A DNA stretch of 64,000 nucleotides, taken from contig CAJNOJ010000007.1 in the NCBI GenBank assembly GCA_905250025.1, positions 186,001-250,000 on the forward strand. The letters are read 5' to 3'. Shown here in pieces: positions 2,374-43,009 of this stretch. The DNA comes from Adineta ricciae. Taxonomy: Eukaryota > Rotifera > Eurotatoria > Adinetida > Adinetidae. The position numbers were made by a program, and so were the translations under genes. Positions within the stretch are counted from its first letter, which is position 1. Every line of letters begins with the position of its first letter. The notes under the pieces are model-generated. The model worked only from the letters and a program-made list of their open reading frames with translations, was not told where the DNA came from and searched no databases.

Positions 2374-5300
2374 TTATTTCTCACATAGACCAATAGCTTG
2401 GCACACAGCTTTTGGATCGCCGTATTCAGCAATATATTTCATCAAATCAGGAGCATAGAGATGGACTAAAGTTTTGCATTCTGCCTGTAATTTTTCGCCT
2501 GGTAAAACTTTACAAGCTTTTTCTAGAGCTTGTTCGAATTTGACTTCAGTTGTATTCGATTGGAGGATTGTATCCGCATAGTTGACGATGTACTGACAGA
2601 GATTGCAAGGTAATGATTTGAGCTTGTTGGTTTTGATTGCGGGAATTTGAATGAATTCTTTCTTGGATTTTGGACATAAATCTAACCATGCGCAAACAGT
2701 ATTTGGATCATCGAGTTCAGCGAGAAGCTGAACAAGAATTGGCGAATAAGTATGAACGAATACATCGCATTTGTCATGGTATTCGGCTGGTAAAATGGTG
2801 CAGACTAATTTTAATGCTTTTTCGACTTCGGCTTCAGTAGCGTTCGCAGTGATCAAAAGATTGATATATGATAGCATATATTTGCAGAGAGTACATTCAC
2901 TGTCGCTTTTTCCTTTCTTGCCAGATTCAACGATTTTGCCTAAGACAAAAAAAACGATTTTCGGTTATTTTGCTTACTATAACATATTCAGACTTACGAG
3001 CAACTGACTCGACCGTTTGTGTTCCATTCTGACACACTTTAAGGGCGTTGCATACTTTTTCCGGTGTGCCGAATTTGACAATCAGTTGGTAAACAAGTGG
3101 ACCATAGTTCTTGACGAATGTTACGCATCCTGGTTTGAGCGAAGCTGGTAAGATTGTGCAGACCTTTTCGAGTGCTGCTTCGATGGCAGCTTCAGATTTG
3201 TTGTTTTGAATGACAGTATCAACATAACTGATGATGTACTTGCATAATGCACATTGAGCGCTAGCGATTTTGGCTGGTACGTTTACTAAATTTCCTACAA
3301 CGACGACAATAGAGCGGTTAGCAAATCTCAAATTAACAGTTTTATCGACTCACTGCTGGCTGGTTGAATTGATTCGGTTCCATTGTTGCAGATTTTCAAA
3401 GCGTTGCAAACCAATTCTGGTGTACCATATCTTTGAATCAACTGAACAAGAACAGGGCCATAGGTAACAACAAATTGATCGCATTTAGATTTAATTGAAG
3501 CTGGTAAGATTGTGCAAACTTTTTCTAGTGCAGCTTCGATGGCAGCTTCAGATTTGTTGCTTTGGATAACAGTATCAATATAACCGACGATGTATTTACA
3601 CAAGGAACATTCTACAGAACGGAGTGGTTCTTGTTTACTGCTCAACATTTCCCGCAGACTGCTAGCAACTGAAAAACAAAACAGAAGTTGAAGCCACAAG
3701 GCACAGATTTTGCTGATCTATTTACGTGGTGTTATTTCTTGTGTTCCATTGTTACACACTTTGATGAAATCGCATATTTGTTCAGCTGTGGCGTTGTTAT
3801 GAAACATAAATGCGATGATCGGTCCATATTTTTGGACGAAAGACGCACAGTTGTTTTTGAGGGCTCCAGGTAGGAGGTCGCAAGCTTTGTCTAAGGCGGC
3901 CTCAATTGCTGCCTCGGATCGATTACCTTTGGTAGCAGTGTCGAGATAGCCGATGACAAATTTACAAATTGTACATGGAATAGTGCTAAGTTGTGGTTTT
4001 TGCAAATTCATCATAGGGACATGTTCGACTAAGGAGTCAACATAATAATAGGAAAAACTCGCTGCAAAATTAAACTTACATGTTGCCATTTCTTGTGTTC
4101 CATTGCTACACACTTTGATGAAATCGCATATTTGTTCAGCTGTGGCGTTGTTACGAAACATAAATGCGATGATCGGTCCATATTTGTGGACGAAAGACGC
4201 ACAATTGTTTTTGAGGGCTCCAGGTAGGAGGTCGCAAGCTTTGTCTAAGGCGGCCTCAATTGCTGCCTCGGATCGATTACCTTTGGTAGCAGTGTCAAGA
4301 TAGCCGATGACAAATTTACAAATTGTACATGGAATAGTGCTAAGTTGTGGTTTTTGCAGATTCATCATGGGAGCATGTTCGACTAACGAATCAACATAAT
4401 AATAGGAAAGACTCGCTGCAACATTAAACTTACATGTTGCCATTTCTTGGGTTCCATTGTGACACACTTTGAGGGCGTTGCATACTTTTTCCGGTGTGCC
4501 GAATTTGAGAATCAACTGAAGAAGAAGTGGGCCATAAGTGTCGACGAATGATACGCATCCTGGTTTGAGCGAAGCTGGTAAGATTGTGCAGACTTTCTCG
4601 AGAGCAGCTTCAACAGCGGCTGCTGATTTGTTGTTTTGGATGACAGTATCAACATAGCCGACGACATACTTGCATAATGCACATTGAACGGATTTTACTG
4701 GCTTGGGTAAGACGACGGTATTTTCTGATTTTTTGCAAACTTTGATAAATGCGCATACTTTGTCAGGATCCATTTCACGAACAAGAAGAGCAATGAGATC
4801 AGGGCCATATGAATCGACAAATGATTTGCATTCATCACGTAAAACCGATGGCATTTCTTTGCAAACTCCTTCGAGGATATGTTCAATTTGTTGAGCTGAT
4901 TTGTTTTGACTTGCATATGTCTCGACGATGTGAACAACAAATTCGCAAATAACACATGTTAGATTTGATGGAGCATTGCTGGGTTTTGGTTTTGGTACGA
5001 ACACATTCGATGTATCATGTCCTTGAATGATGGAACAGATTTTGTTAAGTTCCTATTCAAAGAAAAATCCACGATTCAAACGCCCGTTTTTCTTTGCTTA
5101 AATCGTCGACTTACAGTGCCACTTGCAAGATGACGAAGAATATCAGCAACATAGATATCGACAGCCATTTGACACTGTTAGAATTAGCGAATGACATGAA
5201 AAATAATAGAAACGAATATGCAAATGCTTACTTGTTGAACAAGATCTTTTTGGTAAGGTAATTTTGTGCAATCTTGACGAAGATATTCTTTGATCGAATT

Positions 5301-9023: not shown

Positions 9024-12000
9024 TTATTGTTTATCAATTATATTCGTTACATTGTATTGCTTTAACCAAGTTAATAAAAATGTTTGGTTATTGTTTCCAT
9101 TGGCCCATAGACGTGGTGTAGCTATTTGTAAAGTTGGCAGGAGAAAATCTAGTTTATCATCGATATAAAAGCGGATTTTATCGATCAATTCAATCAATTG
9201 TTTCGCACATGTTTCCATAATTTTGTATTCGACCGGTGATTCTAACCATGTTGCAAAGAGTCGACGTAAACGACTAGTCAAAAAGTGCACACCGATTTGA
9301 ATATCATTCGACGAAAGAAATGTTATTGATTCGAACAGCACAGGTGAGAGTTTCAGCACGAAATCCATATCGTGTAAGTATCGAATTAGTTTCGAGAGGA
9401 AAAATTGTTTCGTTTCTAAGTAGAAATTCTTGAATATTTTGTAGGTATGAAGAATCAATTCATTGCTTAGGTAGGACAGAATAGCACTCATTGAACGTGG
9501 GTAGTGTGTGAAATGATCGAACATTGTCAAAGATTTGTTAACATGACGAACGATTTCGTAGACAAATGTGTCGATGGCTAATGTTGTCAATTGAGTAATG
9601 TTAAGATGTAACAAATTTTGATGATTTGTCAAGCACGTAAGGCTAGAATAAAATTTAAAAGAGATGCTAGTTCACTGGTTGAAAGAAGAACGATGATGTA
9701 CTTGTTCATATAGTCTTGAAGCAGCTTTTCACTTGCAAAACCGACTTGATCGACTACTTCCAGAACGAAGTGTTTTGCTTTTGTCACTTCTTCGAAGAAT
9801 ACATTGAGATCCTCATCGAACTTGAGATGTTCGATCAAATCCTGGCCGAATTGTCCTTGATCATTGATAAAATCTGTTTGTGTATGATTGAAAAAATTCC
9901 GCACATCATCGATGAACTCGAAAGCGAATTGGTTTTCCAAGAAGAATTGTCTCAAACGTTTGTACCAAGTTTTTTGTTCAGTCGTTTGCCACATTGGAAT
10001 CAATTTCTAGATCATAATGCAATTCATCAGCGAAAACAAATTCTTAAACTTACTAATTGATAATCTGTTCGACTGGAAATAGTAATCAATGCTGTTGACG
10101 AATTTCGATCGATCCATCTTGTGAGAATCGATGCTAAAACTTGTTGAGGAGAGTTTTTCTGTAGAAACAATTGATTTGTTGTTAAATTGAACAAATACTC
10201 TTTTGACCGTAGTCGTAAAGCTGTTGTATCAAGTCGGCCATCGAAGTACTCTTCATTATCAATGAATACTGTTGAATGCAACAAGCCCGTTTCAGGATAC
10301 GATTTCGGCAAAGTCAAATTTAAGTTAATTTCATCTGCAAGGAGTAGAAGGAGGTGTATTTGCGATTCGCTAGTGTTGGCATAGAGATGCATCAATGTTT
10401 TTTCATTGGAGTAAACATTCGGTTTCAAACGAATGCAAAGTTTTCGTCGGGGATGATGATCCAATGTGAAGCTGAGATTTGTTTTTGAGAACACATGAGT
10501 TAATTTAACCGACACGACTTGTTGAGTTAAAATTTGTTGATCGATGTTCAGTTCAAGTACGATAGGTTTAGATTGACTTTCTGCTGATGCATAAATTGTG
10601 TGTACTCTAGCAATAAACTTCGAATCTTCTAATCGACCTTGAATAACACTGTAAATCGGTGTTGATAAGACACCATTCGGGTCCTGGACACTCATTTTTC
10701 CTTGTAAATTCTTTTGTTTCGTATCAATTTTGACATTCCACTTGATAAACACTCGCTCAGATTTCTCATATCCATAGATTAGTTTCCAGCGCTCGTCCAT
10801 TCTGATTTTCTCTTGATTATCGATATCTTCGATAGTAAATGCTAAATTTCCAACGAGAATTAACTGTTTCTTAGGAGTTTGATAGCCTATACGAAATGAT
10901 CGACCACGAACCAGATTAAACGATGACATTTGTAAAGGTAGGAATTCCAGAAAAATTTTCACATAACGATTTTCATCTGTATTTGGATGATAGATCAGGT
11001 TAAGGTCATAGATTGGCGTTTGAATATTTCGATTTTCGTAATAGAATCTTCCCGATTTGTAGTAATTAAACGTGAAGTTCTCTTTTCGTTGTGAATCGTA
11101 CAGATGTAGATATCGCGTAGTATCTGACGAAAGGTTTGCAATGACGATACCGAACCGATGTGTGTGATATTGAATAGTATTATCGTTGAGAGAGAAAAAG
11201 TTCTTTTTGTGATCGAGCTCATGCTGAAAAGTAAAATCTTGTAGGGAACCGTTGAACACGAATTCTGAATTGTGGTTGTACAGATAAAAACGATGGTTTT
11301 CGAGCGAGAGATGCCAGGTTTGATTAATAACTTGATTAAATTGAAATGTTATATGATATGTTGTTTGATTGAGCAGTTTTGAAGAAAATGAGATGTCCAG
11401 ATTGGAAGAATTTCGAAATAACTTGAAAGCAGTGAGCGATCGTACGCCTGCGTATTGAAATACGAAATGGAGCCGAGATTTGTGAAGAATTTCCAAAGCG
11501 ATTTGAGGATTGGTTGTCGGATAAAACTGCACGTATCTTCCCGTTGAAATGTACAACGAAGAATTAAAGTTTAATCTCGATGAGAAATACCAATCATCAT
11601 TTGGAAATATGAGCGAACCATTGAATCGATCGTGTCGAAAATATCCTTCAAGATTCCAATATGTTCCATTCATACTTGGCTTTCCAATGATTCGGTAATG
11701 ATTATGAATGACTTGAAGATGAGCTGAAATCGTTCGGTTTGGATAGTAGCGTAGTTTACATTCGTAACGATCATCCGCATCTTCTCCATGTGGTAATCGA
11801 CGAATGATTAGTTGTCGTCTTTGATTGTCATAGATCGAGGAATATTTAAAAGTTGTTGTATCAAGATGAAATATGTATTTTCTGCGAAGGTCCATCTCGA
11901 ATTTAGTTACAGGGATTAACATTCGTCCATGGCCTGTATAGTTCCAAGACAGATACGAACGTGACAACCATTCAAACATCATCGTAGATAGGCCGTCGTT

Positions 12001-15000
12001 CAAAGTGTAATATTGTATAGAGAATAGACGAGGACGGATTTGGATGATTAAATATGGATTGCACTAAAAGGAAAACATTGATGAAGGTACAATGAAGAGG
12101 AAAAAGCAAACTTCACTTTCTTCTACCTGTAAGATCTGATCATCGATTGTAAATAGATTTGTCGTCCGTTCAAATATGAATCCGAACTTTTCGTTCTGTT
12201 TATCAACGACTGATTTCACAAAGGTCGATGTGATAATCGTCGTAGATTTCATATGTAGTGTGTTTAGATGGAGAACGTTTGCCGAAGTATTCCAAAAGCC
12301 GTGAATATCGTATTGATCTCGATTATTGATGAACAAACCTTGAATAAGATGATTCGAATGATTATAATTTAAATCTAAGTCATAATGTGAATTGATAAGA
12401 TAAAGATCGAAGATTAAATTCGACTGTTTCGTCGTATAATAATATTCGTGATGAAGCCGAATTAACTCACGACGACGGCCTAACATCATTCGAAAATCGA
12501 CTGCCCATTTCCCGAACCATAGATAGTCGTTCGTTATATTTAAGTTCCATTGGATAGGTTCGAAAGAGAATAGAAGCAAGTGTGAGTCGAATGTCCAAAA
12601 ACGAATGGATGCGAGGTTCCAATTGTAATCAAAGTCAAAGTAACGCCGTCGCCGTAGAAATGTCATTTGAACTAATCCTTGGAAATGAAATAGTTCCTTT
12701 TGAACATGTCGAGTCCATACCAATGAGAAAAATTCTCGTTTGAATAGTGGAATATGACATAGGACCTTCAATCTGTGATCTTTCAATGAAATATCAAATA
12801 TAAAATCATTGAGAAATTTGGAAATGAATTTTGAAAACGCAATCTCAATTCGTATCAATGTTTGATTATCTGTGTGATAATGGATCGGTAAAATTTGTGT
12901 TTGATTTGTCTTTAAATAAATTCGCTTTAGCAAAAACGTCGAGTTCAACGGCGAGGAGACGAGCTCGTACCGAATATTCTTGTTGATTATCAGTGACATC
13001 ATCCAGTTTCGATCGAGTTCAAATAGTGTCACATAGGATTTACCTAAGAAGTTCTGTTCAATACGCATATGAATACGCGTTGGAAAGTCATTTATGAAAA
13101 ATATTTGAAGGCCCGAGAAAGTCGAAATATGATAATTAATTGACGTTCGTGTTAGATTTGTCCATTCGAATAGCTGGATGAATAGCTGACGGTCTCTTTC
13201 GTAAAAGAATACAAATGGTTTTGTGGCAAACATCGATGGTATATGGATCGAACTATTCCAAGATTGAAGAACAGTTGAGTTCGGATAGTATTGACTAGAT
13301 GATTGAAGAGAGAACATTTGGTAATGAATCATTTTCAACGATTGGTTAATATATGTTTGAAACAGATAATTCGATCGAAATGTGAAGTTCAGAATCAAAT
13401 CAAACGAGTATTCATTACGAAAGCAGGATGTGACGTTAAGTAGAAGATTGTTTGGTAAAGAAATGAATTCGAGTTGAAGATTAGAATATTTCTTTGTTGT
13501 ACCAAGAACAGTTTCAACGACTGGTAAGTTCAGTGAGAAATTGGTGTACTGAGCAGATAACTGTCCTTGGCCTTCGTAATGGTAACCAGGTATTTCGAAG
13601 ATAAATGTAACGAAATCCGATTGATTCAGATGAAAGTAAGTGTGTAGAAGCTTTTCGGATGCATAGGACATTCGCATTTCGATTGTACGATGTATCATCG
13701 ATGAATGAAAGGAATACCCATTGAAATACGCATGAATTCTTGTCAAACGGTGCATATGAAAGGAAATATCGCAAAGAGACCAGCCGTTTACCAATGAAGT
13801 GGAGTGAAAATTAATATGGGATAAGTTATTATAATGAATCTGAAACGATCGAAAGATTTTTTTCGTCATTTGCCGTGGAATGTTCGTGGATTTTTTTACC
13901 TGAGTATTGTGATCAAATTCGAGTAGAGATGAGTTCATCACCAATGAATGATGCAGATAAGATTCTCCTTTCATAAATATCCATTGAAATTGACTATTCT
14001 CGTTTCTTATCGCTGAAAAGTTGAATGATGATCGATAAAAATCATAGTAGAAGTTTAAGAGAAAATCTTGTTTAAAAAAGAAAAATACACGTTCGATTTT
14101 CATATTCATTCGAGCATGATACCAATCGGTCAGACGCTCCAATTCCATTATCAACTGTCCGCTGAGAAATTTCGATGCATTGATACTGAGATTTCCATTA
14201 TAATGTATAGAAACATTGCCGATGTGTTTCGGATGAACATTCGTTATATTAATCGAAAGATTCGGGGACAAATCATGAGAATACTCGCCTGAACCATTCA
14301 CAATCGATCGATTATTGTAGGAAATATTAAATGACATTATATGATTATCATGCCATTCAATTGACGATGCATACTTTGTTGTTGGTGTAGAAAATTCGAG
14401 ATAGTATGGCATCCATGCAAATTTATGAAACTTTCGTTGGAGATGATACGATTTATAGATGTGTTCGTGCTGTTGGATATGAAAATGAACGGAATGGGAT
14501 GAAGATGTTAGATTATAGACAAGTGATGAATCATCCGAAAGTAGACGTATCTAAGGTTTGGGCAAGAGAAAGGTTAGGATTACTCATATACAACGTCTTA
14601 CTGCGATCGAAGAAGGCCATAGGCGATGGAAAAAAATTGACAGGCAAATTTTGGAATCAAAATGTGGGAGTATATAGCAAAAGTCTTTGAATGATGGGAG
14701 TGAACTAGTTCTTGACAGAATTTGTTTGTTATGAATTAGTGAGCTGATCGATTGTCTAAAGAAGAAAGAGGAATATGAGGATAAGGATGAGAATATCGTT
14801 ATCAAACTGTATTTTGAAGAGAACATTTTCTTTTTGAATCGAACGCCAAATGTATGAAGTGGAGTTGTCGTGTTGGTGAACGTGGATACGAAAGTTGGAT
14901 TCAAGATTAAAACGTATCTCGTAGCCAGTCATGATATGCTGCAATCCATGATTGATTTTGAAGACAATACCAGCACTTGATCTAAGGTAACAATAAAAGA

Positions 15001-17381: not shown

Positions 17382-19280
17382 TCAAGCGTCTGTTTTCGAA
17401 GGAACACGTGTGAAATTTTGTTCTTGTGGAAGTTTATCAATTCGTAACCAATGTGAGCGCATGTTCTGCGTGCAACATTTTTGCCAGCATGATTTGAAGA
17501 GCGTAATCAACTCATGACGAAAACGATTTCCACATAATGAATAGAGAAAGAAATTCAAACAGAAGGACATGAAGTAGAAATGCCGTAAGATTCCCAGTGT
17601 ACGTTTAAAGTCTTTCTTTGATATAATTGAATAAAGTAAAACAGCACAATAAGGCGAATTGAACAGGAGAAAAGTGGTGGAACAAATAACAAGCATTTTC
17701 GTTGTACGTTGTGATATCGCTTGTCGATTGCTATTGGAATTGGCTGCCGAAACAGGAGATAACTCGTTTGGAATTGGAACTGTTGAAATAGGCGAATTAG
17801 AAAGACGGGCAAGATATTCGTTACCTGTACCTGTAGATTCTATACATGACGAGGATATCTGTCGATTTGTTTGCGATGTTGGTGTGCCAATAGATGTGCG
17901 CGCTGTATCTTTCAATGGAATAAAATTAGTGTCAATCGAATTTGATTCATACAGCCGTTGTCGTTCGTGATATAAATCTCCTTTCGACAAGCGAATCGGT
18001 GACGACGTTCGTTGATTGCGTGAGCCTGGAGCGGTCGTTAATGAACCCCCTAGAAATGTACGGAAACATAAAATAAAGATCTGGCGGCAAGAATCCGTGA
18101 GTACATTGATTCCGTTGGCTAATAACAGAAAAGAAACTACTCTCCTTTCATCTATTTATAGGCTACCTAGTGGTGTTCGACTTCTTTTGAGCAGTTCCTG
18201 TCAGCCTCGTATCATTGAATATGAAATCAAACTCTCCTTCTAATCAAATACACCTCACTGACACCTCGTCTACTTCTTGTCATGAAAACTAATTTTTTTT
18301 CTCTCTGCCTTCGTGTATATCACATAGTATCTCACATTACACTGCGACACATAGATCCATTTTTCATTAAGAATGTTTTAGCTAATATTGCAGTATTCCG
18401 CGCGCTGTTTGCAAAAGAAAAGACGACAATGAATGTTATCTATTTCCGGTCTGTCCTGATTATCACACGACAATGGAATGTAAAGAAAGAACATTTTTGA
18501 ATTAGAACCATGTTACATACCGAAAATATTTGTAAACCGTTTTCTGTTTCTTAATTTATACACAATTGCACAATTGAAGAGTAGAATAAATATGAATGGT
18601 AGAACAAACGTTAAACACGTATCAACAATCAATAATGGATACAGGGCGGGATGATTTTCGTTTTCTTCACATTGATTCTTTGAAATATGTGTAACAAAAA
18701 AACTAAACGAGTAAAAGCTACAACCAATTAAAACTAATATGAAGATATTTATTGTTGACGAACGACTTGATATGATCGTATTGGCATGTAATGGGAAAAG
18801 AACAGCAACGAACCGTTGTAGCGTAAATGATAACGTAAAATTAGCTGAGAGAAATGAACAAATGTGTGTGATATAAACAGTGACTTCACAGACTATTAAT
18901 GAACGATGAAAACCGATGATTGAGCCTGTTGATGTATCAACAATTGACAGAAAGATTATTAATAAATAAAGAAAATCAACGCCAGCTAAAGCTGATAGTA
19001 ACATCGAAGAACGCCACTTCCGCATAGCTTGTCGATTGAGTACAATCATGGTACAAGCATTACCAATCAAGCCGATCACAGAAACAATCAGTGTGATTTG
19101 CGTGGTTAGATTTTCAACGAATTTCAAATGTTTCGAGCCCGCTTCTGTTGTTGTTTCGTTGGGATACACTAGAGATCTTCCAGCCATTGTACTACTATAA
19201 TATAATGACGACGACGATAATAATGTTGGCGAATTGACAGTAATAAATAAGGCAGAATCCGAACGATTAGTAAGAGCCAT
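17382..19280 (-). CDS. class A (rhodopsin-like) G protein-coupled receptor
   Basis: Two exons, 18521-19280 and 17382-18049, with a 471-nt intron, giving 475 residues. The extracellular N-terminus has N-glycosylation sites (NRSD, NETT, NLTT). TM1 carries the GN signature in GLIGNACTMIVL; TM2 has LLSALAGVDFLYLLI; TM3 begins after a cysteine (LIVCEVTVYITHIC) and ends SFTLQRFVAVLFPL, so the usual D/E-R-Y is replaced by Q-R-F. TM4 and TM5 follow; the third loop is long, Ser/Thr-rich and about 100 residues, and holds the splice junction. TM6 is KMLVICSTTFLLFNSPY; TM7 ends SFCLNFFLYSLCGNRFR, where NPxxY is LNFFLY. The shape resembles peptide-type receptors (FMRFamide-like) of rotifers and other protostomes, but the ligand cannot be told. 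Confidence 0.88.
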
Positions 19281-22200
19281 TGCTTTGTTCTTAGATGGTT
19301 AATGTAAGATTATGAGAACATGAAATTATGTCGGTGTAGCGGATCAATTAGAATTCGTAGATTTTCTAGAATAGAGAGACAAGATGTCATCGTGATGGCT
19401 GGGAGAGATGACATAGATATGGTATAACGAATATGACTATGATAAATTTGAATGGCATATACCAGTAGGAGAAAAATTCTGTTAGATGATGAGGATAATA
19501 ATGAGGAGGGAAACAACTACTAACATAAGAACAATAATAACAAACGAGACTGCAATTGACTGTCATTCGAACAAATGTCAACACAATGACAGAAAACGAC
19601 GCGCGACAGAGAAAGCGAGTTCTCTCTTGAACAATTAATCATTTTCGATAATCCTTAGACAATTCGAAATATAATTATTAACGAATAAACAATACGGCAA
19701 TCCTTTCTGTTCTACTCAATCTAGATGAAATAAGAGAACGAATTATGTATATGATATGCAATACGCTCAAGTAAAAAAAAGGAGAAGAAGAAAAATACAT
19801 GCAGACGAGTATTTTCGTATGTGCATCTGTTTACTGTTTGCTTTCTTGCTTTGCAAAGACCGAAAAGGCGAATAATTTCTTCATGGCTATATATACATAC
19901 TTGCTTTTTCGTTCGAAAAAGAGCGAATGAGAAAGAAAAGTACGGGCTGTTTCTGTGCAACATACCACAGACAATGCTCCGTCAGTATGTTTATCTTCTA
20001 TTCTCAACTAGTCATTTGTATACTTCCTGAGATCAGAAACCATCCTTACTGATACAGAAACAACAGTAAGAAGATGAGAATCAAGTACGTCACATTCCAG
20101 AAAAAGAAATAAAGAATCTATCCAGTAGTTTTTTGTTCATCGGTAGTAATAAGAGATTATTATTTATGATGGATAGGAAGAGACGAAGAAGATCCGTATT
20201 TAATGAAGAATTTCTCTTCTTTCATTTAACATACCTATCACGTTCAGTTAGCATGCGTCTATGTCTTTGGAAGAAGGAGAGAAAAGCTGAGTGAAAACTG
20301 CCATTGCATGTCAATTAAAAACAGATCAAAGCTAACTAAGCTCGACATTGAAATAATCAGATTTCGAAGTTTTAGATTAAAACAAAACGTTGAGAGTAGT
20401 TTGTCTCGGCGAGACTTTTTTTGTCGAAGAAATCGACGACGATTATGAGAATGAAACTGAAAAAAAACAACGTCGATATATTATTTGACTTTTTATCACG
20501 CTGACTATATCTAATCAAGTGAAAGTTAGCACGAAATCATCGATGAATATGACAAAAGTGATTTATGAAAACGTAATCGATGAGACTGAGCAATATTACA
20601 TATTCTTTGTCATTATTTTATCAAAATACCAACACGATTCGATTACCTGAATTACAGTTAACACGAGGAGGAAGAAAGAAAGAAAAACGAAACGAGAGCG
20701 AGAGCGAAAGCGAAACGCAGCGAGTAGTAATTCCTACGTAAGTGTTATAAAAGAAAAAAGTCGTTACCTCCCAATAGTCTTGCAATGAAATGTCTTACCT
20801 AGGCATCGCATAGCGAAACCATGTGAGTGCGCAGTTCGCACACATCGACAACATGTCATTGAAACGTGAACAATAAGTAAAAACAAATGAGTCGCTCGCA
20901 GCTATTTCCTCTCTTATTGCATAAGAAATTTCAACAAATCGTCATTACGCAGAACAGACAATACGTAGAAATATTTCACACGGGTGTTACAATAAAGAAA
21001 ATTATTAGATACCGATGAAACCTTCAGTTATTTTCATACATATGCTAATCAGCTTCATTCAACGGCGTGTTTTTTTCTCGTTTTCTATCTGATTTTGTTT
21101 CCCTTGTCTAATCTAGACGTTTCTTTCTTTCGCTGTGTTATTATCATCGTACTTTCTCGTCCTAATAGTCTATTAACCATTAGCTACCGATTAGACACGA
21201 GTAACACGCTGCTATTCATAATCATACATAATTTCTCTTAATGATTGCCTATAATTTGTCACTATGACGAGATTTTCTTAGAGCGAGCAGAGAAAGTACT
21301 GGAAGGTAAGATATAACTTTGCGGGAAAAACACGTCGACTTGCCGCAAAACAATGGGGATAAGTGCTTATTTTTTCTCTGCTTCGCGTCAAGTTATCTGC
21401 GAGTGACGATTTACCTAGAACTATTTATAGTAAATCAGTTTTTTTCACTAATAATTTATATGAAGTAATCGGCATGGGTAGAGAAAAAACGTAGGATGAA
21501 GTACTTCTTGAAAAAGAGCATTTTCTATTCAAGAGAAGAAAAATTCCGTGTCAAAATTATAGTAATTCTTATTTAATTATCGTGTATCAGATTTCCTCTC
21601 GTGTTCATATTAGTACATTATCGATTATTAGAGTCGCGATGGTAAAAATTCGCAGGAAATAATCGCATTATCTATTAAATGATACAATGTCGCGAGAAAA
21701 CCAGAAATTGAACATCCTACGAGTCCCTTAGGATATCAAGTCTATTAAAATGCTCTGCATCGCGCTGTGCGAAAACTTTCGGATGACGATTCAACTCGCC
21801 AAACAAACCAACTAAGCATTTCTATTCGGCACAAACAACATCAGAGAAAAAGAGAATAACAGGGTTGTTGTTGCGTTCGAAAATTTATTTACCAAATGGA
21901 ACGTAATTTTGTTTCTACTATTGATAAATACATCTGAAGGTCACCCATGAGTCGTGTTTGTGCAGATCTTTCTCATCTATTTACCATGCATAACTTCGAA
22001 ATTCGACTAAATTTCTCAAGGCAATTTACATCCATACAAGCATGAAGAAGAGGTTAACTAGTATAAAAGATTGAAAGCGGTCATTGATCATCGAAGATTT
22101 CTGTCTTCGGGAGACAATGTTTGACACTTACGGATACCTTCGAGTATAATACGAATCTCTTATTTAAAGGAATAGATATGGAAAAGGTTACCGATGTTGA

Positions 22201-23974: not shown

Positions 23975-26355
23975 TCAAATAAATATTTTAATAGAATTAA
24001 GTAGGCGGCGAACAGGTCTCACAGCAACTAAGCGCACTTCCATCACTTGATTTTCCAATTGATCTAATTGTTGACTATAATATTGGATCCAAGTCAAGAT
24101 CGGCCAGGAATTCATCGAATTGTTCTTGTCCTGATGTTGGGCTCGTTTCGAACCGTAATCTAACACTGTCAAACCGATCCGACCGACCTGAGCAAGATTT
24201 TTCGAGAGCTGCTCGATGTCTTGTCCCCACACTTGTTTTATTTTACCGATGTTCGGATCATCGAAGAGAGAGTTCAGACGAATGTGATTGAGAGACCATT
24301 TTTGAAACACACCATGTAAAACGTTGTGGTTAATAGGAGAATTTTCTAATTTCCAGATAGGTTCACTCACAGCCTGAAGAGCGTCAATAAAAGTTGTCAA
24401 TGGAACAAGAGCGTGATATTTTTGACTTTGAGCACGTGGTTCAAAACCACCTGGTTCACAAGCATCAGCTAAAATCATTAGCGGATGCAGAAGGTCCTTC
24501 TTTTTATTGGAATCACCGAATAAATTCTCTAGTCGACTTTTGTATAGAGATAAATGCGTAAGACCGATTTGTAAATCATCGAGTAAATGATTCATACGAA
24601 ACAGACGTTCATACATGGATAGTGTATCATTCATGGACGACGGCGACCAAAAACGCTCGGCAATAGCTAATAAGCGTGGCCATAAACGAGAGTCGACGGT
24701 ATCTTGTGAGACATATTCACTCCACATGCAAGCTTCACCGCCGAGAATATGACTTTGTTGTTCTTTATTGAATAACCATAGTTCGTCATCTAGTATCGGA
24801 TCGTTTTTATAATGAAAGTCTGTGGAAGAAAGGTGATCAAGGTAATAGCCAGTTGAAAGTAAACCTCGATAGCCTTTGTCAATTGTTTCAGTGAGAGACT
24901 TTCGACTTTTCCATGACTGTATAATTGCCTTTTTATCGAGGCCTGATTTTTCACCAACTTGATCGAGTATTTCTTCCCAACCAATCATCACTTTGTTATA
25001 TTTCTTCAGCATGGCTTGAACGCGTCGATTAAAATAAGCTTGTAAACCGTACTTATCTTTTAAGTTTTGTTGTTGAATAAATCGTTGAATGGATTGCGAT
25101 TGTGCCCATTGAGTACCTTCAACTTCATCACCGCCGATATGAAAATACGGGTCTGGAAATAATTCAGTCATTTCACGGAGGACTTTGTCGATAAATGTGT
25201 ATGTCGTTTCTTTTGTTGGATCCATAGTTGATTTTAACATTCCCCATCGTATACTTATTTCATATCGAGTTTGCTCAGCAGCTAAATTAGGATAGCCAAC
25301 GAACCAACTAAAACGAATAAAGCAATAAACTAAGATCTTTGACACAGTGTACTTTCTATTCAATGACACTTATTCGCAGAACATGAATTTATTATACTGA
25401 GAATAATACATAATCATATTCCACTCAAAAAGTATTCGCTTTTTTGCTATAGTCAGAGAAATTACCTTGTCGTATGACCTGGAATATCAAATTCGGGTAT
25501 CAGACGAATACGTCGCTGGGCAGCATAATCCACCAGATATCGAATATCTTTTTGACTAAAGTAATCTTTTCGATCGTGTAATAATGGATATACCAGACTT
25601 TCAACACGAAAACCTTGATCATCTGACAGATGCAAATGAAGAACATTCATTTTACTCAGTTCCATTGCATTCAATGTTCGTTCGATGACTGGTATCGGCA
25701 TCCAATGTCGAGAAACATCCAGCAATAGACCACGCCATGGAAATCGGGGTCGATCAACGATATTCACACAGGGAATAAAAACTGTGCCTGATGACTTGTC
25801 TCGTTCGATCAGTTGGACGAATGTTGAAAGGCCTCGAACGATACCTGTCAATGTAATTGCTGATAGCGACGATTCAGTCTCTGTGACATTGAGTATATAA
25901 GATTCGTCTTCGTTGAGTTCAGGATAGCTATCCCTTTTACAATTTTGCGAACCGCAATAGATAGTTAGTCTGTTCTCAGGGTTCGACGAAGAAGCTAGTT
26001 CGACTTTTATTGAAAGCTTTGTTAACGTTGAGATGTATGTCGAATAACGCTTAAGTGCTAAATCAAGATACTTCGAAGATTTTTCATTTGAGACTAGACG
26101 AAATTGGTCGGTTATTACGAATTTGGAATATTCAGTGCGAACGAATGCCGGCATAGGAATAAGTTTGATGCCATTTGATACGGGATTAAAATTAAAACCA
26201 CGAAAGGCATAATCCTGATAACGTTCATGATTAACATCATTTCGACTTATAAATAACTGCTGGTTGGCATTTCGTATTAGTAGATACAGAATAAATATGA
26301 AATTAATAACTAATGATAACAATAATATTTTAAAAAGAAATACAGGTCGAAGCAT
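23975..26355 (-). CDS. GH20 beta-N-acetylhexosaminidase, bacterial-type, membrane-anchored
   Basis: Removes terminal N-acetylglucosamine or N-acetylgalactosamine from glycans, using substrate-assisted catalysis. Exons 25466-26355 and 23975-25307 flank a 158-nt intron and give 740 residues. Residues about 6-26 form a signal anchor (FKILLLSLVINFIFILYLLI), predicting a type II protein. A GH20b-like N-domain follows, then the barrel: RGLLLDVSRHWM, LHLHLSDDQGFRVES and FDIPGHTT, with the intron right after PGHTT. The catalytic Asp-Glu pair is in YFHIGGDEVEGTQW (about D357-E358). Downstream are MIGWEEIL, AIIQSWKS and GEACMWSE. The segment SWFVGYPNLAA..TMDPTKETTY..DPYFHIGGDEV resembles bacterial GH20 enzymes (as I recall them, acidobacterial-type) more than animal lysosomal HEXA/HEXB, which read like YVHLGGDEV. 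The intron and AT-rich codons argue for a resident nuclear gene rather than contamination. Horizontal origin is inference. Confidence 0.93.
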
Positions 26356-29704: not shown

Positions 29705-30028
29705 TTACTCGAGTTCATCTTCTTCTGATTGCCTTCGTGTACGTCGATCTTTCGATGAAGCATTCTCATTTTGTCTACCATTTGAACGTTGTATAAACCA
29801 TTGGTGATTAAATCGATTGCTAACGGATGTATCGTGCCAACACCAGCAATATCGACTGAATAGATTCACCCAGAGTAGAACAAGGAAGACGCCAACCATA
29901 AAAGCAATACCAGCTATGTATATCGTGCTAACAACAGTTCGTGTTCGAGCTGGCGGTGACGAAAAAGGTAATGTAGCCAATTTTGTACTGTTTTCCAACA
30001 TTGAGAAATTTTGTCGTTGCTCGTTCAT
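29705..30028 (-). CDS. small single-pass membrane protein, unknown
   Basis: One exon, 107 residues, not recognised. A polar N-terminus with an N-glycosylation site (MLENSTK) precedes a basic RTRT and a strong transmembrane segment of about 23 residues (residues 35-57, IYIAGIAFMVGVFLVLLWV). After it come Cys-rich CWCW and a charged tail, RRTRRQSEEDELE. With Arg residues before the segment, either orientation is possible. The clean membrane segment, full ORF and normal codon use support a real gene; absence of a homologue that I know lowers confidence. Confidence 0.5.
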   Translation of the reverse strand: MNEQRQNFSMLENSTKLATLPFSSPPARTRTVVSTIYIAGIAFMVGVFLVLLWVNLFSRYCWCWHDTSVSNRFNHQWFIQRSNGRQNENASSKDRRTRRQSEEDELE

Positions 30029-38463: not shown

Positions 38464-39461
38464 ATGTCTTTTCGTATTGTTGCTCAATCAAATTTGATTG
38501 ATGCATGTTACAGTCTCCGTTATTCACCTCATTTAGTCAATCAACTAGCCGTTGTTTCATGTGAAAACTTCGGAATTCGTGGTCGTAGTACTATACAATT
38601 AATTGGCAATCATAATCAGATATCTTTACAATGGTCGGATGCATTGTTCGATATCAGCTTTGTTGAAACAGATCCATCACTGATTGCTTGTGCTAGTGGA
38701 GACGGTTCTATTGTTATCTGGAAGATAAACAATAACACTTCTACTCCGCTATTATCTTTACGTCAGCATCAACGCGAAGTGTGGTCTGTTCATTGGAGTG
38801 AGAGTCGGTCGTCAGATGCTCTACTAAGCGCATCTGCTGACGGTACAATTAAACTATGGGACTTTACTAGGTAGATAAATTTTCTCTTCGAATTTTAGTA
38901 GTTCAGATCCTACTATTTTGTAGATCACCAAACCTCCAGGCAACTTTAACCGGCCATGAATCTATAGTATATGAAGCTCGCTGGCATCCACGTCGGCCTG
39001 GACTGATTGCTTCAGTTTCAGCTGATTGTTCGTTACGAATATTCGATACGAAACAAGCATCGAATATAATGAATCCTCGTGCACATCCCGCAGAAGTTTT
39101 ATCGGTTGACTGGTCCAAATATGATGATCATCTGTTAGTTACTGGCGCATGTGATAATCGTCTTCGCTTATGGGATATACGGATGATTACAAGCGCATTA
39201 AGCATATTCGAAGGACACGAAGCTGCCATTCGTCGCGTTAAATTTGATCCACACCGACGCGATCGTCTTGCATCGACCGGTTACGATGGTCTTCTAAAGT
39301 TTTGGAACATAACACCAACAAATAGTAATATCAATATACATACGGAGCGTATTTGCAAGGAATTTATTTATGGGCTTGATTGGAATTTGTTTGAGCGGGA
39401 TAAATTAGCTGTAGGAGCCTGGGACAAAACGATACGTCTATGTGAATTTGCTTCGCCATAG
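38464..39461 (+). CDS. PEX7: peroxin-7, PTS2 import receptor
   Basis: Cytosolic WD40 propeller that binds PTS2 signals and delivers cargo to peroxisomes with PEX5 or PEX20-type partners. Exons 38464-38870 and 38924-39461 give 314 residues (human 323). WD repeats end IVIWKI, IKLWDF, LRIFDT, LRLWDI, LKFWNI and IRLCEF, with the GH or HP dipeptides before each (LTGHESIVYEARWHP, FEGHEAAIRRVKFDP). PEX7-specific spots include WSVHWSESR, SVDWSKYD, GACDNRLRLWDIR and FIYGLDWN. The start is the first ATG of a clean ORF immediately after an AT-rich leader. The gene looks intact. Confidence 0.94.
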
Positions 39462-40159: not shown

Positions 40160-41566
40160 TCACTGTAACGTTCTTGGCAAATCTTCTTCACATCGATATT
40201 TATACAAACTCAAACCTTGATTTAATTGAGGAAATTTTAATTCCTCAGAACACAAGTTCGTTGTTGCATTACGTTCTGATCTCACAAACGGATAATTTCG
40301 ATGTAGTTCTTTACATGGAACACGCCAATTATCCGTTGATCCACGATTATACCGATGTAGAAATGTATTACCTTCACAGACATGAAACAAATTCGATCGA
40401 CCTAATCGTACCATGGCTTTTAATGACAAGCGAGGCTGTCGTGGACTCGGTACAAGTAATGGTCCTAATACACGCAAGTATACCGGTTCAACATTGCTTT
40501 TCGCTAAGTAACTCATGGTACCAAGATTGTGTTGATGCTTTGGATACGCATAGATATGTGTGGCGTTTTCTTCATAAGGAAAAATATCGATTTTTGGCCA
40601 GCGGTAGTTGGTTCGATTGACAATTGGCGAACGTAAGGAAAAGATCTTGTATGATGTCACCTTGTGGACGTTCTTGAATTGATAAACTACTAAATCCTTG
40701 TGGAACGATGGTCGACTAGAATATTTCAATAGAAAGAATACCGAAAAGCAGAAAAGAATTTGAATTTACTCTTTCGTCAGTCTTTTTCTGCTATTTTCCA
40801 TTGTTGATGAAGTTGTAGCTGATGAGTTTTTATTCAATGACAAATCCAATCGACGAAATGATTGTAGAATTTTCTCGGTAGCTGTTGATGGAATAAACAA
40901 ATCAATATCCGTATCCCATGGTATCACATCATGATGTCGCAGAACTCCAATCAATGTTCCTTTCGTCAGAAAATACTTAATTTGTGCTTGATGCAAAATC
41001 AACTGAACATTAACCATCAGTTGTAACATATGAAAATAATCACATGCAGAGACATCGGTCGGTAAAATCGAATTATTCACTGCACGTAAATGTTCCAAGT
41101 CAAAGTAATAGAAAAGACCCATTCCAACTGGACGTTTGATTTCATTGATCGGATAGAACGATTCGTTGATGTAATAGACGTACCGTGTGACATCAATGGA
41201 TTCGTAACAATACGATCCATTGTGATGACATAGACTACAAGCATCATGCACAAACTTTGTTAGAATTTGTTGCCATATATTCATTAATTTGTTCCAGATC
41301 GATTGGATATCCGTCAATGAAACGTGAGTATCAAATAATTGATCTAATAGGAATTTTACTTCGTCATATGTCAACGAATTGGCTAATGGAAACGGAAAAG
41401 TCTTTGACGGTTGGGTGGAAACATAAGTTTCAATATCACGGTTCGTGTTGTCTGATTCATGTAGGAGAAGAGTAATGGCACATAAACCGACGAGTATCAT
41501 GCAAGGAATCCATAGACGGCGATTGTTAATTAACAATCGAGCTAATATGACCGGTTTGGCGTACAT
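40160..41566 (-). CDS. LicD/fukutin-family type II membrane transferase
   Basis: Exons 40770-41566 and 40160-40715, with a 54-nt intron, give 450 residues. I chose the ATG at 41566 because MYAKPVILARLLINNRR leads directly into a signal anchor (LWIPCMILVGLCAITLLL), a typical Golgi type II topology; the ORF could extend upstream. The LicD core has QIKYFLTKGTLIGVLRHHDV then IPWDTDIDLFIP, the G-T-L-G...R..G..PWD.D.D pattern of nucleotidyl/phospho-sugar transferases such as FKTN, FKRP and bacterial LicD. The second exon has NYRWPKIDIFPYEENATHI, the family's second W..DIF.Y block. The lumenal stem has CSLCHHNGSYC and N-glycosylation sites. Probable role: adding phospho-linked sugars or alcohols to glycans in the Golgi. 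Substrate unknown. Confidence 0.85.
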
Positions 41567-43009
41567 TGAGGAAAAAGAAATTCTCAGAAATTGACGATAT
41601 ATATCTACATATGTCCGGAGAAAGATCAAATACAAAGAAGAATTAAATTTAATAAAAACATAGTTTTTAACTAGGCGCAAAATCAAAAGAAATTCGTATT
41701 TCATGAAAGTATTCGTTGATGTTCTATGGCACTAAGACGATATCTCAGGTCAAACTAGTACTGCAGCCTGGATTTTCAGACAAATGGTCTGATGTGGAAA
41801 AAAGTGGGCGAGCGAGGGATAACAGACTTTTATATCGAGAAGCGATGCAGAGATAGCAAAGCATAAGAATAGAAAAAATCAACTTCTCTTGAAAGATTAC
41901 GATAAAAGAATGTGGGTGTTTACATATGAACTCTCACACCGACGTCTATTTGCAAACTTTTAGTTAATTTTTCTACTTATATATGTCATATTTATTGATA
42001 AAATCAAACTGTAATCTAAATGAAAGCAATAGTCTTTCACAAAATAATTTCCTGATAATTCAAAAGAAAATTCCAACTAATCCAACTATAATAGATAGAC
42101 ATTCCCTCCTTGACTGGGCTACTGGACAGCACTAATACAGACACACTAGATAGAAGAAAAGCTGTAGCTAATCTTGAGAGAAAATTACCTCGAATGAAAA
42201 CTAACCAAGTCTTCTATCCTTCTCTTCCTTTTGAGCGAAAACTGTCGAGTGGGAGAACAAGTATCTCAACATAACTTTCAGCAGGTCTAATATATCACCC
42301 AAGAAAACATCCAGGCGATTGCACTCGGAAGGATAGATGAAAGCTGAGTACAGTTTCTTCTCTGATGGTGTACATATACATAAACGATAGAAGCAGGAGG
42401 AAATAACAGTTATAGCAACAAGCACTTTTTTCATATTTTCTTTCTTATGATGCCATGTATTAGATCTCTGTTCTTTTCTCTCTCTCTGTCTCTCTTTCTT
42501 TCCTTCCTGTACGATGTAAGAAAAAGATAACTGAAGAGAAGAATAAGAAAACAGAATTCTTACTTGTTTATTACATCATTTCTGACGATATGTGCGGTTA
42601 ATGATCATCATCCGGTATTTATCAGAACATACCATAAGCACGACTGTGGTCTTTCTTTTTCCATGTATGTATATATATATATTTGTCGATTCTGCAACAG
42701 CTTACAACCGAAAAAAAATGATATAAAAAACCGACGAGAAATTTTAGAACACACGAAAGAAGTTAACTTCTTTTCTCGAACAATCGGTAACAAGAATCAG
42801 AGTACAACATAGAAGAACATTGATAAAACAAAGGAGAGAGAGAAAACCGAAAGAAGCATTGAAAGAAGAACAGAACATAAAAACAGGTATTGCTAGTAAC
42901 TGAAAGTATTTTATTCGAATGTGCTCAAAGATTATAAAAGCTTTTCTCTATTCAGAATACTATATAGATTCATATATGCGTAAACTGTTATGGAAATCTG
43001 TATATACTA
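41567..43009. other. intergenic, LicD to claudin-like gene
   Basis: About 1.4 kb. Holds one candidate small peptide gene (42201-42434), listed separately. Otherwise a CT-rich tract near 42475-42510 and a TA run at 42665-42682. Confidence 0.45.
42201..42434 (-). CDS. candidate small secreted peptide, unknown
   Basis: A 77-residue ORF. It begins MKKVLVAITVISSCFYRLCI, signal-peptide-like with a KK start and a hydrophobic core, and it ends in a charged KEEKDRRLG. Two cysteines lie early and one mid-protein. No family recognised. It sits alone in an AT-rich intergenic region, so it may be chance. A donor at its end (CTTG then GTTAGT) hints it could continue into another exon. Confidence 0.25.
   Translation of the reverse strand: MKKVLVAITVISSCFYRLCICTPSEKKLYSAFIYPSECNRLDVFLGDILDLLKVMLRYLFSHSTVFAQKEEKDRRLG

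Follow-up and report, generated by a model that had tools for sequence, protein, structure and literature searches.

A bacterial-type GH20 beta-N-acetylhexosaminidase gene, very probably acquired horizontally, is an intron-bearing resident of the genome of the bdelloid rotifer Adineta ricciae

The window, a stretch of 64,000 nucleotides that was analysed as a whole, corresponds to positions 186001-250000 of contig C7 (1.08 Mb) in a 130-Mb assembly of 1033 contigs (G000). On its minus strand, from position 26355 to 23975, lies a gene of two exons around a 158-nt intron that encodes a GH20 protein of 740 amino acids; the ATG is at 26355 and the stop codon at 23975-23977. Exon 1 (25466-26355, minus strand, 890 bp) encodes an N-terminal anchor-like segment, the GH20 N-terminal domain and the first part of the catalytic barrel, ending in PGHTT. 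Exon 2 (23975-25307, minus strand) supplies the remainder of the barrel, including the HIGGDE motif (D357-E358) and Y452, followed by a C-terminal helical bundle. The intron (25308-25465, minus strand) is in phase 2 and has GT-AG borders (GTAATT...TTTTAG), and its predicted splicing would connect PGHTT with SWFVGYPNLAA. Because 158 is not divisible by three and the unspliced frame contains a stop, only the spliced form would yield the 740-residue protein. This intron had been proposed in an earlier interpretation made from the letters of the DNA (the sequence-only reading), and comparison supports it: a paralogue in the same genome, L009, carries an intron at the same site.

The Pfam model of the GH20 catalytic domain (PF00728) matches residues 205-519 of the protein with an E-value of 1.9e-93 and a score of 314.1 bits, against a cut-off of 22.3. 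Two GH20 N-terminal domain models also match, and NCBIfam returned no match to the protein at an E-value of 0.01. The catalytic motif HIGGDE (residues 353-358) and the assisting tyrosine Y452 are invariant across the three copies of the gene present in the genome. Near the N-terminus is a hydrophobic segment, a signal anchor or signal peptide, whose approximate limits by inspection are positions 26272-26343 of the minus strand (about residues 5-28). Its best 19-residue Kyte-Doolittle mean is 2.75, starting at residue 5. All three in-genome copies have such a strongly hydrophobic segment (means of 2.52-2.75), compared with 1.19-1.35 in three bacterial sequences. The sequence-only reading had named a signal anchor here: the hydrophobic segment stands, as a putative anchor or signal peptide. 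N-glycosylation motifs were uninformative: the three copies have 3, 6 and 8, and 55 bacterial sequences a median of 1 with a maximum of 8. The product is probably an anchored or secreted exo-beta-N-acetylhexosaminidase.

Among solved structures, the best match by sequence is 6yhh, the chitobiase FjGH20 from the chitin utilization locus of Flavobacterium johnsoniae, with 329.5 bits over query residues 65-608, reaching FjGH20 residue 561. Human HEXB is second, with 275 bits over query residues 93-536. FjGH20 has been described as having a C-terminal helical bundle absent from other known chitobiases, and the residues D316, E317 and Y413 are named for it (PMC7426924). The window protein has the same architecture of N-domain, barrel and C-terminal bundle, and its D357, E358 and Y452 align with these three residues. 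The bundle homologous to 6yhh residues 504-673 is present, as bacterial sequences align up to about residue 736 of the window protein. On our reading of the alignments, the counterpart of the lid tyrosine Y538 of the FjGH20 bundle, a feature of that enzyme that is not established as defining the FjGH20-like group, is F585, which is still aromatic; the other two copies carry Ile and Leu there. Unlike FjGH20, the window protein is encoded by an animal, its gene bears an intron and its N-terminal segment is more hydrophobic. Animal lysosomal HEXA and HEXB share the GH20 N-domain and catalytic barrel with the window protein but lack the C-terminal bundle.

Profile scores point the same way. The window protein scored 759.6 bits against a profile of 38 Acidobacteriota sequences, 637.1 bits against one of 14 Bacteroidota sequences and 336.8 bits against one of five animal HEX sequences, although part of this gap arises because the HEX profile is shorter (478 positions, against 723 and 682 for the Acidobacteriota and Bacteroidota profiles, respectively). 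We also modeled the structure encoded by exon 2 from an alignment of ten sequences. As this is half a protein, the mean pLDDT is 65.9, with the half barrel poorly modeled; from residue 301 of the model onward, 11 of 15 ten-residue blocks have a pLDDT of 80-96 and the other four 52-68. A Foldseek search with this model returned 6yhh as the top match (450 columns, E-value 2.1e-14), with a TM-score of only 0.37 that likewise reflects the half-protein model. Among the 29 matches with an E-value of 0.001 or less, 6yhh is the only one to span exon 2 together with the bundle, while the alignments of human HEX chains extend over 215-259 columns. Two weak matches span more than 480 columns, GH20C (5a6j, E-value 2.7) and BtGH84 (5mi6, E-value 4.1). 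On these comparisons we firmly assign the window protein to the bacterial FjGH20-like group, in agreement with the earlier proposal of a bacterial GH20 enzyme rather than an animal HEXA or HEXB.

A scan of bacterial and archaeal genomes confirmed 19 relatives among 66 pattern matches, the best with 40% identity over residues 50-687. All 19 are bacterial, a count whose weight is lessened by the restriction of the collection to bacteria and archaea. Searches with exon 2 in samples of genomes, which overlap and in which many matches are to other GH20 types, found matches in 68 of 199 genomes from the phylum of the Bryobacterales genome G002 (best 298 bits), 148 of 296 from the phylum of a Pedobacter genome (284 bits), 65 of 150 from the phylum of a Gemmatimonadetes genome (256 bits) and 22 of 199 from the phylum of a Planctomycetota genome (245 bits). 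Scores in the G002 phylum sample drop from 221 to 120 bits with nothing between, but intermediate values occur in other samples. The class of G002 gave 107 of 200 genomes (best 340 bits), and the family of genome G926, which includes G002, gave 72 of 150 (best 358.5 bits), the top five with 45-49% identity. Fourteen loci from this family (L099-L112) share 40-45% identity with the full protein, in 12 cases over approximately residues 65-733 or further.

These GH20 sequences from Bryobacterales (Acidobacteriota) and the same family, such as L022, L099 and L087, are the closest that we found, at 40-45% identity and mostly near full length. In contrast to the window gene, they are single intron-free open frames, and three measured loci have a GC content of 60-65%. 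The N-terminal segment of L022 is also less hydrophobic than that of the window protein (1.33 versus 2.75). To our knowledge, no function has been assigned to these Bryobacterales-side enzymes. From these similarities, the donor was probably a Bryobacterales-like member of the Acidobacteriota. Viral and plasmid sources were also considered and rejected. One scan of viral contigs gave 112 pattern stretches and no relatives; exon 2 matched 280 of 72,556 plasmid records, of which one covered at least 80% of the exon, at 34.1% identity.

Phylogenetic trees were drawn from loci among the matches listed, with human HEXB as the sole animal sequence from outside this genome. The in-genome HEX sequences are joined exon translations chosen by profile match and used as unchecked gene models. 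In a quick tree of 70 sequences (L069 omitted as a duplicate of L025, and the in-genome pieces L018 and L020 unused), the three in-genome copies grouped as a single clade (SH-aLRT 98) next to two Bryobacterales sequences (96), with HEX apart. As this tree warned of long branches, a reduced set of 64 of the 95 sequences was used for a careful tree, omitting long or other-type GH20 sequences (including those of contigs C68 and C272), near-duplicates, partial sequences and some others. Rooted on HEX, it recovered the three copies at 98/98 and the five HEX sequences at 100/100 without the window gene, while its deepest split was unsettled. The HEX-like genes of the same genome, which have many exons, fall in this separate group with human HEXB. 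Placement of the window protein inside the metazoan HEX clade, which had been named as the result that would speak against a bacterial affinity, was not seen in the trees made.

The position of the three copies relative to the bacteria depends on the root. In the HEX-rooted tree, the split that unites them with 19 sequences of the G926 family has support values of 56/89. A HEX-free tree of 56 sequences, which omits the five HEX sequences together with L055, L070 and L027, joins the same 22 sequences at 99/88, and two more from that family enter at 100/100 (24 sequences). Nesting of the three copies within one bacterial family is therefore well supported only in trees that omit the very distant HEX root. 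In the 64-sequence, HEX-free and 44-sequence trees, the window gene and relatives were flagged by the program for an amino-acid composition unlike that of the alignment.

The gene might also be an old eukaryotic or animal one, sister to HEXA and HEXB and lost elsewhere. Forcing HEX and the three copies into one clade costs 1.34 log units, and the AU test leaves this arrangement standing (p-AU 0.45); a 44-sequence tree, a subset of the 64 from which the C4 copy was omitted, joins HEX to the window pair at 56/54.9. However, HEX is connected through a branch of 1.38 + 1.38 changes per column, so long that its attachment point is unreliable. The 40-45% identity to the G926-family sequences extends over nearly the full length of the protein, the C-terminal bundle is shared with bacteria and lies beyond the HEX alignments, and the gene nests among the sequences of one bacterial family in the HEX-free tree. 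We consider vertical descent very improbable.

A route through a second eukaryote, in which a fungus, amoeba or alga took the gene from Acidobacteriota and passed it on to the rotifer, is also conceivable. Bdelloids acquire fungal and algal genes as well (PMC3499245). The stem of the three copies, at 0.36-0.39 changes per column, leaves room for an intermediate host, and the collection scanned held only bacteria and archaea. Against this, nothing that we found suggests an intermediate eukaryote, and none of the introns is known to be older than the transfer, since the intron sites of the close pair differ from that of the copy on contig C4. We regard this indirect route as unlikely, and return to direct acquisition from a bacterium below.

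The composition of the gene resembles that of its surroundings. Its third-position GC is 0.32, compared with 0.29-0.36 in five neighbouring frames, and the GC content of the window is 0.33-0.39 in 2-kb bins; a value of 35.6% is published for the A. ricciae genome (PMC5916493). We scanned ten neighbouring frames against Pfam: four passed the cut-off, one had a WW match below it and five had no match. On one side of the gene lie a 7tm_1 (rhodopsin-family) receptor (18513-19298) and saposin repeats (3718-5052), and on the other WD40 (38871-39461) and LicD (40766-41731), all above the Pfam cut-off. Judged from these matches, the neighbouring frames look eukaryotic and the receptor looks animal-like. 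The sequence-only reading had placed the gene between animal genes; that the neighbours are eukaryote-like holds, and animal-like can be said of the receptor.

Bacterial contamination or a chimeric assembly could in principle produce a bacterial-type gene in an animal assembly, and a GH20 locus on another contig (C68, 58% GC, one open frame) could itself be a contaminant. The window gene, however, has host-like third-position GC, an intron that shifts the frame and brings a stop if unspliced, and eukaryote-like neighbours on both sides along a 1.08-Mb contig, and its paralogue has an intron at the same site. We give contamination next to no credence.

The region has other features of its own. 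The saposin-type domains at 3718-5052 lie in four stretches, and two adjoining units are nearly identical, which suggests a recent tandem duplication. At 10027-14550 on the minus strand are two abutting long frames (678 and 828 aa) with no Pfam match at an E-value of 0.001. Window positions 17489-19097 and 29782-29962 match C19:361544-368169 of the same assembly in three stretches of 71-75% identity with order kept, perhaps the second (ohnologous) copy of the region in a degenerate tetraploid genome. None of the 37 in-genome GH20 matches listed lies on C19. Elsewhere in the genome, an open frame matches the ligand-binding domain of AvGluR1 (PDB 4io2), a receptor of Adineta vaga, with 439.6 bits (next chain 176.3). 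This close match to a bdelloid marker supports an Adineta-like bdelloid as the host. A model of glutamate-receptor ligand-binding domains gave 67 matches over many contigs (for example C202, C256 and C124), many of them single frames of about 870-1000 aa, indicating a large family, of which the one member compared is AvGluR1-like.

The paralogue L009 lies about 55 kb from the window gene on the same contig and on the opposite strand (C7:267601-269860) and encodes 732 aa. Its 61-nt GT-AG intron interrupts the same codon in the same phase. The third copy, on contig C4, is modeled at 719 aa with an uncertain C-terminal end; it has a 52-nt intron at another site and none at the site of the window gene. 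L009 is 63% identical to the window protein and the C4 copy 40%, while the C4 copy is 43% identical to one bacterial sequence. Since the C4 copy is so divergent, it could have come by a transfer separate from that of the close pair, although the trees join all three (98/98 and 100/98).

Several further GH20 genes were seen in the assembly. L010 (C7:290500-295500) is an animal-type HEX-like gene about 22 kb past L009 on the same contig. At L011 (C68:258500-263500), a 5-kb locus with a GC content of 58%, a single open frame encodes 670 aa; it groups with Planctomycetota-side GH20 sequences of other types and is either a recent transfer or part of a contaminant contig. L012 (C272:111500-121499) comprises a closely similar pair of GH20 genes separated by about 6 kb, which sit on a long branch next to animal HEX in the quick tree.

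Comparison of the window gene with L009 revealed a tract of 431 bp, at 25475-25905 on the minus strand, that is 100% identical to C7:268039-268469. Fourfold sites are identical at 71 of 71 positions inside the tract and at 47 of 118 outside it, where nucleotide identity is 62% over 588 codons. Searching the whole genome with a 501-bp query turned up both of these copies and, at 70%, the C4 copy. The tract is best read as the result of recent ectopic gene conversion, which is the simplest reading of these identities. Both copies are on one contig, and there is a small chance that the sequence of one was pasted into the other during assembly. Each gene is in frame, however, with diverged flanks on either side of the tract, and gene conversion in bdelloids is discussed in PMC5916493.

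Considering the 40-45% identity to the Bryobacterales family, the nesting in the HEX-free tree, the host-like composition and the intron, we find it highly probable that the window gene is an FjGH20-type exo-beta-N-acetylhexosaminidase gene gained horizontally from bacteria, likeliest from Bryobacterales-like Acidobacteriota, and now a resident, intron-bearing bdelloid gene. A transfer followed by intron gain, as the sequence-only reading had suggested, thus gains support. We propose that a GH20 gene passed from such a donor to the bdelloid and underwent duplication afterwards. One intron position is common to the window gene and the inverted copy near it, whereas the more diverged C4 copy has its intron elsewhere. 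Recent gene conversion between the two close copies would have involved 431 bp or more of the catalytic domain. The N-terminal hydrophobic segment, as a type II anchor or a signal peptide, would direct the protein to the secretory path, and the enzyme would cleave terminal GlcNAc (or GalNAc) off chitobiose, chitin fragments or similar glycans. Catalysis would follow the substrate-assisted retaining mechanism of GH20, with E358 as the acid/base and D357 and Y452 positioning the N-acetyl group. For its role, our first guess is that it digests chitin or fragments of microbial walls in the gut, to which we attach about an even chance; a part in remodelling chitin or glycans made by the animal itself comes second, as a tentative suggestion. 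A broader reading is that a captured bacterial chitobiase has founded a small gene family in the animal, with introns of its own and a membrane anchor, in a presumably asexual host where ectopic conversion keeps neighbouring copies alike in part of the catalytic domain while anchors and bundles diverge. We hold this reading in even balance.

The literature search, which covered titles and the starts of abstracts, found no description of this bdelloid GH20 gene, and neither hexosaminidase nor chitobiase occurred in a text search of PMC3499245. The gene may already be among the candidates in supplementary tables of bdelloid studies. Of the active genes of A. ricciae, about 10% are classed as foreign (PMC3499245). 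Foreign genes are common in bdelloids, and the transfer itself is unsurprising. Like other horizontally acquired bdelloid genes, the window gene encodes an enzyme of foreign origin, bears an intron and lies among genes of the host. It is a clear case of a known type of event: the donor group can be identified, intron sites vary among the copies and the identity tract is sharp. If real, this tract would mean that gene conversion acts on genes gained by transfer in an animal presumed to do without conventional sex. The enzyme, if active in the gut, would aid the digestion of chitin or microbial wall fragments.
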